Below, one piece after another: positions 2,580 through 4,645 of a DNA stretch of 23,803 nt. The DNA is from a virus. The notes beneath the pieces were generated by a model. The model had not been told where the DNA came from and searched no databases. It worked only from the letters and a program-made list of their open reading frames with translations. How positions within the stretch are numbered: position 1 is the first letter of the stretch; every line of letters begins with the position of its first letter. The DNA is taken from positions 1 to 23,803 of the IMG/VR virus record IMGVR_UViG_3300025120_000552; one strand, given 5' to 3'. The position numbers were made by a program, and so were the translations under genes.

Positions 2580-2654
2580 GCTGTCATAGCTCAGTGGTAG
2601 AGCGCGTCCTTGGTAAGGACGAGGTCGGGAGTTCAATCCTCCCTGACAGCACCA
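2580..2654 (+). tRNA. tRNA-Thr (anticodon GGT), CCA encoded
   Basis: The 75 bases fold as a complete cloverleaf. The acceptor GCTGTCA pairs with TGACAGC. The D stem is GCTC/GAGC. The anticodon stem CGTCC/GGACG carries the loop TTGGTAA, giving anticodon GGT (2612-2614). The variable loop has 5 bases, and the T arm GGGAG/CTCCC carries the loop TTCAATC. A discriminator A and an encoded CCA (2652-2654) follow. It reads ACC and ACT threonine codons. The gene lies inside phage-like sequence, so it looks phage-borne. Its anticodon loop and inner stem (CCTTGGTAAGG) recur behind the integrase at 4633-4643. A reverse-strand open frame over it is an artefact. Confidence 0.97.
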
Positions 2655-2663
2655 TCAGCAAAT

Positions 2664-2680
2664 GCGAAATTAGTTTTCGC
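2664..2680 (+). terminator. hairpin just after the tRNA, possible terminator or processing site
   Basis: GCGAAA (2664-2669) pairs with TTTCGC (2675-2680) across a 5-base loop, 9 bases after the tRNA CCA end. There is no clear T run afterwards, so it may mark 3' processing of the tRNA transcript rather than a strong intrinsic terminator. A second, shorter hairpin (CCTCT/AGAGG) follows at 2696-2708. Confidence 0.35.
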
Positions 2681-2782
2681 TTGCGATGCAATTCGCCTCT
2701 AGTAGAGGTGCGTTTAGGGAGACAAAAATGTTGAGTGATAGAAACCAAGTAACTAAAAATGTGAGCGGTTGCAGACTGCAAT

Positions 2783-2932
2783 TTGGAATTATATACGGAT
2801 CAAATCCTAGAAGAGCAACAAGCTGGAGTAACCAACCAACTGGGCCAACCGAGCTGGGTCTATATCTTAACAATGGGCCTTGGGGCGTATGCAACGCTAA
2901 ACGTAGTGCGTTTAAGCATTATACTTGGTTAG
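2783..2932 (+). CDS. possible small membrane protein, 49 aa, start uncertain or frameshifted
   Basis: The frame from TTG 2783 to TAG 2932 has protein-like composition: an acidic helix (LEEQQAGVTNQLGQ) followed by a hydrophobic segment (WVYILTMGLGAYATLNVV) that could span a membrane. The TTG has no good ribosome-binding site. A well-placed AGGGAG and ATG (2728) lie upstream but in a different frame, which continues as an odd peptide to 2937. A +1 frameshift, natural or a sequence error, near 2765-2775 would join the good start to the good body. The rest of the 2655-2940 stretch holds only the hairpins noted after the tRNA. Confidence 0.3.
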   Translation: MELYTDQILEEQQAGVTNQLGQPSWVYILTMGLGAYATLNVVRLSIILG

Positions 2933-2940
2933 GATAATTG

Positions 2941-3072
2941 ATGCCAGCCAGCCACAAACAACCCATTGTACTTTTAGAAAGTAATATCTATGTCAAATTC
3001 AACTATCCCAGAAGCAACTGGGGACACGGAGAGTACGATGAGTTCCAATCAAATGGACAGAATAGAGTTTAA
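2941..3072 (+). CDS. small hypothetical protein, 43 aa, overlapping the HTH gene
   Basis: ATG 2941 has AGGA (2931-2934) at 6-base spacing, a better site than the alternative ATG at 2990 used by the overlapping frame. The peptide (starts MPASHKQPIVLLESN, ends EFQSNGQNRV) has plausible composition with a beta-strand-like core. Its last 35 bases overlap the start of the LuxR-type gene at 3038 in another frame. It has no recognisable domain. It could be a leader peptide that couples translation into the regulator gene, or a chance open frame. Confidence 0.4.
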   Translation: MPASHKQPIVLLESNIYVKFNYPRSNWGHGEYDEFQSNGQNRV

Positions 3073-3481
3073 GTTAGATCAGCTTTTGGCCGCACACGCA
3101 GTGTCGGCACACGTTAAAAAAGTTTATGCAAATGACGCGGAGTCTGGCGTCTGGGATGACTTGCATAGGTTCACGCCAAAACAACATGCGGCATTGCAAA
3201 TGCTGTTGCATGGACAGTCCAATACAGACATAGCCAAGCGGATGGGCGTTAGCCAGAACACCGCGAAGGTTCATGTCAGGGGGATTGCAAAGAAGCTGGG
3301 GGTCAACAAGCGTGGCGAGATTATGGCGCGAATGGCTCGACAGTACGAGACAATCGACGACGATGCCTACCGAGTGTTGACTGGTGGGTTGCCGAAGAAT
3401 TGGCACTTGGAATTTGATGAAGATGTGCAGTGTCCTTGGCGGCACTTATACGAGAAGATAGGGGGAGGCGATGCCGATTAA
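3038..3481 (+). CDS. LuxR/FixJ-type helix-turn-helix regulator, 147 aa
   Basis: A DNA-binding domain of the GerE/LuxR C-terminal type occupies about residues 45-105: FTPKQHAALQML, then SNTDIAKRMGVSQNTAKVHV, then KKLGV. That is the usual four-helix pattern with a T-x-x-V-H-V recognition helix. There is no receiver or autoinducer domain; the N-terminal 45 residues are a short, probably coiled helix (MDRIEFKLDQLLAAH). ATG 3038 is chosen because GGAG (3028-3031) lies 6 bases upstream. A frame extension back to 2990 has no ribosome-binding site. The gene overlaps the integrase start by 11 bases, so it probably controls integrase expression or acts as a DNA-bending partner. The target site is unknown. 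Confidence 0.85.
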   Translation: MSSNQMDRIEFKLDQLLAAHAVSAHVKKVYANDAESGVWDDLHRFTPKQHAALQMLLHGQSNTDIAKRMGVSQNTAKVHVRGIAKKLGVNKRGEIMARMARQYETIDDDAYRVLTGGLPKNWHLEFDEDVQCPWRHLYEKIGGGDAD

Positions 3482-4613
3482 TTTAAAAGAGCGAGACGGT
3501 TTTTGGCACGTCATTGGTACTGTTACTGACAAGGATGGAAACAAGGTCAGGATAAGAACAAGCACTGGTTTTCGCAAACATCAGAAGGTGCTGGCAACGG
3601 ACGAGATGAACCGAGTGCTTCACAAGGCATTGAACGGTGACTTAAAGCCGAACACAATGTCGAAGAACAAAGACAAGAATAGTGTCGGGTATGCGGTCAA
3701 TGCGTTTCTGAACAGACCATCAAAGCCTGGGAAGACCGATCAGTCCAACGGAAATCTTCTGGCCAAAAGTCTTGGAGAGAAAAACTTTAGCCGTCTCAGT
3801 TTGCTTGAGGTGGTTGAGTGGTCGCAGACGCCAGCAAAGAAGAAGACGTTGGCAGCCAATGCGGTGGCGAGAAGGTTGCAGACTTTCTCGGCTATCCAGT
3901 CTCATGCAAAAGGTCATGGTCTGGGGTATCCAGAGTTTACTGTGGTGAAGCCAGTGTATGATGACAAGCGGACTGTCTATCTTACCGAAGCGCAGAGGGA
4001 TGAACTGATCGAGTACATGCCTGATCGTATCAGGGATATGGTAGTGGTACTTTTCTACACTGGTATGCGTATTGGTGAGATGCTGGGATTACAGTGGCGT
4101 CAGGTACAGACTGAAGCTGATGGCACTGTTGTTGCTGAAGTTATTAGCTACAAAGGTAGGCTGAAGAAGCGACATGTTAGGCGTATCCCTTTGCCCAAGA
4201 TTGCTTTGGATGCGATGGGTGCGCGTGGAACTGGAGTTGTCTTTCCGACTTACACAAATACTGCGTGGGACAGAACTAACTTCTATAGTTTCTGGCATGT
4301 AGGTTGCGAGGATGCAGGTGTAAAGAACTGGATTGAGGATGGCGAGAACTTCCATCCACATGATTGTCGGCACACTTATGCAAGCCTCTTGGTGCAGAAA
4401 GGTGCAAGCCTCAAAGCTGTTCAAAAGTTGCTGGGTCACTCGACTATTGCGATGGTCATGCGTTACGCGCATCTTGCGCCAGACGCGCTGAAGAGTACGG
4501 TAGAACTCCTTGGGTCTGTTGACACGTCTGTGACACGCGGCATAAGTTTCGCAAGCGCGAAAGTCCTATTAAATAGAAGAAAGACAGGAGGTTATGACAG
4601 GTTGGCAGTCTGA
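3471..4613 (+). CDS. int: tyrosine-family site-specific integrase
   Basis: This is a 380-residue phage integrase of normal length. The C-terminal catalytic domain shows all the expected residues: R200 in FYTGMRIGEMLGLQW, a Lys in the strand region near 229-233, H297 and R300 in HPHDCRHTY, H323 in LLGHS, and the nucleophile Y332 in MRYAHL. The N-terminal part (1-60) resembles an arm-binding domain and residues 65-150 a core-binding SAM-like domain. It starts at ATG 3471 behind GGGGGAGG and overlaps the HTH gene. The 3' end of the gene contains one of two pairs of TGACACG boxes, and the probable attP core follows 18 bases after the stop. It catalyses integration and, with a directionality factor not identified here, excision. 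Confidence 0.97.
   Translation: MPINLKERDGFWHVIGTVTDKDGNKVRIRTSTGFRKHQKVLATDEMNRVLHKALNGDLKPNTMSKNKDKNSVGYAVNAFLNRPSKPGKTDQSNGNLLAKSLGEKNFSRLSLLEVVEWSQTPAKKKTLAANAVARRLQTFSAIQSHAKGHGLGYPEFTVVKPVYDDKRTVYLTEAQRDELIEYMPDRIRDMVVVLFYTGMRIGEMLGLQWRQVQTEADGTVVAEVISYKGRLKKRHVRRIPLPKIALDAMGARGTGVVFPTYTNTAWDRTNFYSFWHVGCEDAGVKNWIEDGENFHPHDCRHTYASLLVQKGASLKAVQKLLGHSTIAMVMRYAHLAPDALKSTVELLGSVDTSVTRGISFASAKVLLNRRKTGGYDRLAV
4520..4537 (+). repeat. left pair of TGACACG boxes (likely integrase arm sites)
   Basis: TGACACG occurs at 4520-4526 and again at 4531-4537, an 11-bp period that puts both boxes on the same face of the helix. The boxes lie inside the last part of the integrase gene, about 110 bp left of the proposed core. 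The same spaced pair appears on the right side at 4746-4763. Paired arm sites flanking a core are the normal attP layout for tyrosine integrases. Confidence 0.65.
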
Positions 4614-4631
4614 TACGAAAGCCCTTTTAAC

Positions 4632-4645
4632 CCCTTGGTAAGGGT
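4632..4645 (+). other. probable attP core matching a tRNA-Thr(GGT) anticodon arm
   Basis: The 14 bases CCCTTGGTAAGGGT form a 5-bp stem with a GGT centre. Eleven of them (4633-4643) are identical to the anticodon arm of the phage tRNA-Thr (2608-2618). From memory, the whole 14-mer matches the anticodon arm of typical bacterial tRNA-Thr(GGU), such as that of E. coli. It sits 18 bases after the integrase stop between two pairs of arm-like boxes. Palindromic anticodon arms are a known crossover location for tyrosine integrases. The alternative is a simple terminator hairpin, with an outer TTTTA/TAAAA extension. Confidence 0.65.

Follow-up and report, generated by a model that had tools for sequence, protein, structure and literature searches.

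The phage represented by the window—the whole stretch of DNA analysed here, a linear 23.8-kb virus fragment from IMG/VR (23,803 nt; IMGVR_UViG_3300025120_000552)—probably relies on tRNA-dependent lysogeny, a reading to which we assign a probability of roughly 0.87: the host's tRNA-Thr(GGT) gene would be broken on integration, a phage-encoded tRNA would take its place and an altered anticodon stem would spare the phage copy. Under the proposed mechanism, the tyrosine integrase of a temperate phage would recombine the attP core at 4632–4645 with the part of the host tRNA-Thr(GGT) gene that encodes the loop and inner stem of the anticodon arm. Because the phage brings neither tRNA half, no working tRNA would result at either junction, and the host would lose what is usually its sole copy of the gene. 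The phage tRNA-Thr(GGT) at 2580–2654, expressed from the prophage, would then replace the broken gene, and paired changes in its stem would keep it folding and remove the C-C-C/G-G-G arms that mark the integrase target. The computations show directly how the region is built, where the arm-type sites lie, that core-only att sites go exclusively with a complete tRNA and that simulated junctions rebuild no tRNA; integration into the middle of a host tRNA-Thr gene was documented by others, in phage CRP-810.

The following features of the window are relevant.

2541–2569, + strand: possible tRNA promoter (TTGACA, 17 bp, TAAATA), found by eye, ending 10 bp before the tRNA
2580–2654, + strand: complete phage tRNA-Thr(GGT) with encoded CCA (ARAGORN; cloverleaf fold)
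2605–2621, + strand: anticodon arm of the phage tRNA, CGTCC-TTGGTAA-GGACG, from the sequence, compared with attP and host stems
2990–3481, + strand: LuxR-type (GerE) helix-turn-helix regulator (PF00196, E 1.6e-12), overlapping the integrase start
3471–4613, + strand: tyrosine integrase (PF00589, E 1.2e-26; phrog_1, E 8.6e-51), with its stop at 4613
4520–4537, + strand: left pair of putative arm-type sites, TGACACGTCTGTGACACG, inside the integrase 3′ end (pattern search; direct repeat D2)
4632–4645, + strand: putative attP core CCCTTGGTAAGGGT, corresponding to the loop and inner stem of the anticodon arm in host tRNA-Thr(GGT), with neither tRNA half (position in relatives; host match; simulated junctions; homologous CRP-810 site PCR-verified, PMC11288001)
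4746–4763, + strand: right pair of putative arm-type sites, TGACACGCTCCTGACACG (direct repeat and pattern search)

ARAGORN called a single tRNA in the window, the tRNA-Thr(ggt) at 2580–2654, which folds as a perfect cloverleaf (-31.6 kcal/mol, z -3.0). The sequence-only reading had placed a complete tRNA-Thr(GGT) with CCA some 2 kb upstream, near the regulator and integrase genes, and the call and clean fold bear this out. A tRNA-Thr(GGT) gene sits at the equivalent position in four related records (L002, L003, L039 and L040). The candidate promoter ahead of it was uncalled in a scan for the sigma-70 consensus, and its -35 element is kept in L003 and absent from L039 and L040; we offer it as the promoter of the window tRNA only as a suggestion.

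Catalytic motifs of the integrase (HDCRHT, LLGH and Y) are conserved in the integrase family alignment, and the LuxR–integrase pair is common to the window and CRP-810, according to the annotation of the latter. Because the window primase (9498–11429) is 74.8% identical over 98% to that of Roseobacter phage CRP-810, the window phage is, on sequence grounds, of the CRP-810 type, an assignment made by core replication genes and their order in a fragment rather than by whole-genome comparison. A resolvase adjoins the primase in the window, as in CRP-810, and the integrases of the two phages are only 41% identical. Elsewhere, the minus strand encodes an aspartyl/asparaginyl beta-hydroxylase family protein (6051–6839; PF05118, E 7e-48), a gene unusual in phage, and a 2681-codon open frame (15706–23751), apparently one very large protein, whose C-terminal 1064 residues matched no Pfam family.

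The core CCCTTGGTAAGGGT lies directly behind the integrase stop and has a single exact match in the window. The one other match, in the anticodon arm of the phage tRNA (2607–2620), differs at 3 positions; core and phage tRNA share the 11-bp stretch CCTTGGTAAGG, in agreement with the 11 bases counted earlier. By itself, a 14-mer matched with mismatches counts for little, about one match being expected by chance, and assignment of 4632–4645 as the attP core is supported by the flanking arm-type repeats, by the same position in all near relatives and by the PCR-verified site of CRP-810. Arm-type sites of lambda-like integrases look like paired, symmetrical direct repeats. The pattern TGACACGNNNNTGACACG (TGACACGN4TGACACG) occurs twice in the window against 0.00 expected in shuffled sequence, and the two pairs flank the core at 94 bp on the left and 100 bp on the right; no arm-type site was found at the tRNA gene. 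The match of the core to a tRNA-Thr(GGU) anticodon arm, proposed in the sequence-only reading, was recovered in alphaproteobacterial tRNA-Thr(GGT) genes, and the reported lack of a 3′ tRNA half was also confirmed: neither T-arm/acceptor sequence after the core nor a D-arm before it is present.

Each attP was recombined in silico with 21 alphaproteobacterial tRNA-Thr(GGT) genes containing CCCTTGGTAAGGG, and the junctions were scanned with ARAGORN. With half-bearing attP sites (L046, L047 and L054, of the A type defined below), a junction-spanning tRNA was recovered in 19 of 21 hosts; with those of the window, L040, CRP-810 and L060 the count was 0 of 21, the window's attB being taken from alphaproteobacterial genomes and CRP-810 and not from the phage's own host. 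The expectation that integration would split rather than rebuild the host gene thus held for every junction simulated for the window. A tRNA-Thr(GGT) pattern matched 111 of 190 alphaproteobacterial genomes (the remaining 79 being possibly incomplete or possessed of a different D-arm) and was single-copy in 105 of the 111. The commonest host stems, CTCCC/GGGAG and CACCC/GGGTG, both contain the attP core CCCTTGGTAAGGG. For CRP-810 itself, 13 bp identical in the phage and in the central part of host tRNA-Thr have been reported, with attL and attR both confirmed by PCR (PMC11288001), and these junctions serve as a stand-in for those of the window phage; that paper leaves loss or replacement of the host tRNA undiscussed, and words in disrupt-, compensat-, replace- and restor- are absent from it.

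An integrase alignment search of 385 alphaproteobacterial and 399 Pseudomonadota genomes, a set outside which the likely hosts, Rhodobacterales, fall, revealed no lysogen of the window type or of a core-only relative. The sole match of a first lysogen search (L157) was rejected: its tRNA-Thr, with a CCC/GGG stem, is next to a generic integrase that points the other way, an arrangement resembling an ordinary genomic island beside an undamaged tRNA gene. The matches of a second search (L218–L220) score like generic integrases. Integrase searches of one-per-species genome contigs returned distant integrases only, and among the plasmid matches listed no integrase exceeded 30% identity.

Integrase searches of viral contigs yielded about 90 records, of which 50 had a readable tRNA core; further integrase scans of viral contigs recovered the same core-only phages. 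The readable records follow several designs.

Design A (core plus 3′ half of the host tRNA, behind the integrase), tRNA-Thr(GGT) half: L004, L005, L041, L046, L047, L048, L050, L052–L055, L064, L072, L080, L103
Design A, tRNA-Ser(GCT) half: L042–L045, L056, L065, L108
Design B (core plus 5′ half): L084, Ser(GCT); L088, Gly(GCC)
Design C1 (short core lacking both halves; tRNA encoded on the same strand as the integrase, some 2 kb upstream): window, L002, L003, L039, L040
Design C2 (core only; tRNA on the strand opposite the integrase, whose 3′ end it directly follows or overlaps): 21 records including CRP-810

A complete tRNA-Thr(GGT) is present in all 26 core-only (C) records and in none of the 24 half-bearing (A or B) records. 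Whole-record scans with the Rfam tRNA model found exactly one tRNA in every C record scanned and none above cut-off in A and B records, where the 3′ halves appear as weak partial matches. The integrase tree requires five or more switches between designs with and without a tRNA half; phylogenetically independent contrasts (three on well-supported branches, five on the best tree) were all concordant but too few to be significant once relatedness is corrected for. Two apparent counterexamples, L072 and L080, in which a core without a half had been detected, proved to carry a 3′ half without an encoded CCA; in L064 and L103 the 3′ half is present and the stem is mismatched. No recognisable tRNA core or tRNA was found in L091, L101 and L104, which are sisters of core-only phages, and in five records of 55–58 kb (L090, L096, L081, L083 and L105) another gene stands directly behind the integrase, with no tRNA core and no tRNA in the record.

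Several further arrangements were observed in this integrase family. The attP of L084 and L088 carries a 5′ half, so that, on integration, phage sequence would take the place of the 5′ half and promoter of the host gene. Integrases targeting tRNA-Ser(GCT) are closely related to the others, the target having switched to the tRNA-Ser(GCT) anticodon loop with the 3′ half carried; one of these phages, L065, is sister to the core-only tRNA-Thr phage L058. In a subclade of eight records (L077, L079, L082, L085, L086, L093, L097 and L099), the integrase frame continues across the complete phage tRNA-Thr, in antisense, and across the attP core, the latter read as ..ALTKG.. in most, and the integrase tail (..THPKSYTPDK or similar) is shared with the tRNA-less sisters L091, L101 and L104. 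Since the frame passes through the core, integration would swap the C-terminus of the integrase, which is perhaps a built-in switch.

Position of the tRNA bears on how a replacement would be expressed. In the C2a phages (CRP-810 and nine others among the records listed), the gap between the core's anticodon loop and the phage tRNA, both on one strand, is only 15–28 nt, and simulated integration leaves the host tRNA promoter and 5′ half directly upstream of the phage tRNA. So short a gap could not hold a promoter of the phage tRNA's own that survived integration, and once the phage has integrated, transcription of the replacement should start from the promoter of the host tRNA gene. The window tRNA (design C1), far from the host promoter, would have to be expressed by the phage.

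The anticodon stem sets phage tRNAs apart from the integration target. Twenty C-type phage tRNAs display ten different stems, none of them with CCC/GGG, a stem found in about 83 of 117 host tRNA-Thr(GGT) copies (about 71%; 75 of the first 106, the last 11 copies having been counted by eye). This avoidance gave a Fisher p of about 1e-5 when each distinct stem is counted once and 6e-10 when every stem is counted, with shared ancestry uncorrected. In the window, the third stem pair from the loop is T-A, against C-G in the attP core and most hosts. The sequence-only reading had already remarked that this stem (CGTCC/GGACG) departs from the target; the departures prove to be at symmetrical positions, and relatives avoid CCC/GGG with other stems. 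The simplest reading is that stem changes spare the phage tRNA from its own integrase, avoidance having come about by compensatory change. We infer this sparing role, along with expression of the tRNA from the prophage and essentiality of the host gene.

Alternatively, the stem differences may protect nothing: the tRNA would simply descend from an ancient donor whose stem was different, and the integrase would make no distinction by stem. This alternative, which is compatible with replacement of the host tRNA, we consider possible at less than even odds. TCC/GGA stems do exist in a few alphaproteobacterial genomes, 11 core bases are still shared between phage tRNA and attP, some attP cores are degenerate (L057, L079 and L099) and the phage tRNAs may share ancestry. 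However, an inherited donor stem sits poorly with ten stems in 20 phages, their inner pairs changed differently and none back to the CCC/GGG of about 71% of hosts, or with the actinobacteriophage Fionnbharth, the type case of tRNA-dependent lysogeny, whose tRNA-Lys has 7 bp or fewer in common with the phage's attP region, compared with a published core of 10 bp common to phage and host (PMC10865867).

The tRNA might instead serve lytic growth, by adjusting the tRNA pool to phage codon usage or by replacing host tRNAs degraded by defence nucleases, its proximity to the integrase being incidental. Many lytic phages carry tRNAs for codon usage or against defence nucleases, and this tRNA would be available in lytic growth too. 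Nevertheless, we judge this account very improbable: near-complete relatives encode a single tRNA; it accompanies just those att sites that lack a half and is missing from phages that carry one; and its isotype and anticodon always equal those of the integration target. Moreover, the anticodon loop TTGGTAA is unchanged from that of the host in all 20 phage tRNAs, unlike tRNAs that evade anticodon nucleases through changes in the loop (van den Berg 2023, as cited in PMC11476347). Less credible still is the notion that the 14-bp core is what remains of a decaying attP that formerly had a 3′ half, in a phage that no longer integrates there: half-bearing relatives do occur in the same integrase family, yet the integrase, arm-type sites and core are intact, the same C1 arrangement recurs in L003, L039 and L040 (integrases 97% to 54% identical) and the core-only site of CRP-810 functions.

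The replacement of a broken host tRNA by a phage tRNA is already published as tRNA-dependent lysogeny, defined by Guerrero-Bustamante and Hatfull in 2024 and experimentally established in Fionnbharth (PMC10865867); new here are its setting in marine Alphaproteobacteria and the CRP-810-type family. The cases in that paper are actinobacteriophages only (Fionnbharth, LeBron, Gaia and others), together with the older Lj965. Like the window phage, they combine a tyrosine integrase with a short core (8–17 bp in theirs) inside a tRNA gene, junctions that rebuild no tRNA and a phage tRNA of the same isotype, and, as in the window's family, close relatives with a 3′ half lack the tRNA. They differ in that the window phage is unrelated to them, has a distant integrase, is set among marine Alphaproteobacteria and has tRNA-Thr(GGT) as its probable target, and in that some CRP-810-type relatives have tRNAs directly behind the host promoter after integration. 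We found no discussion in PMC10865867 of how the phage tRNA escapes the integrase.

CRP-810 (mSphere 2024, PMC11288001) resembles the window in its primase, its LuxR–integrase pair and its tRNA-Thr(GGT). In CRP-810 the tRNA gene follows the integrase directly, on the other strand and 24 bp from the core loop, whereas that of the window lies about 2 kb upstream on the integrase strand. In Sinorhizobium, according to PMC11476347, a tRNA gene is likewise destroyed by integration and the prophage carries a functionally similar tRNA, though there the tRNA is tRNA-Leu(UAG), the phage groups are others and the cases are few. Among the papers surveyed that use the term tRNA-dependent lysogeny, none concerns a CRP-810-type phage as judged by title or abstract. 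Avoidance of CCC/GGG in the stem and placement of a tRNA 15–28 bp behind the core appear undescribed.

For the CRP-810-type integrase family as a whole, we lean slightly towards a broader interpretation in which its members embody alternative solutions to one problem: a carried 3′ half; a 5′ half; a self-promoted tRNA; or a tRNA 15–28 bp behind the core that would be fused to the host promoter and made from the prophage only after integration. Stems kept off the integrase target would then amount to self-immunity written in the tRNA stem. Two testable ideas follow that were not found in papers on known cases, namely that a recoded stem protects the replacement tRNA and that integration captures the promoter of the host tRNA gene. 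Tentative as this wider picture is, tRNA-dependent lysogeny in the window phage and its relatives would extend the phenomenon from actinobacteriophages to a globally distributed, abundant family of marine phages. It would explain why each such phage carries exactly one tRNA, and it predicts that marine bacterial lysogens would depend on the prophage for an essential tRNA, tRNA-Thr.
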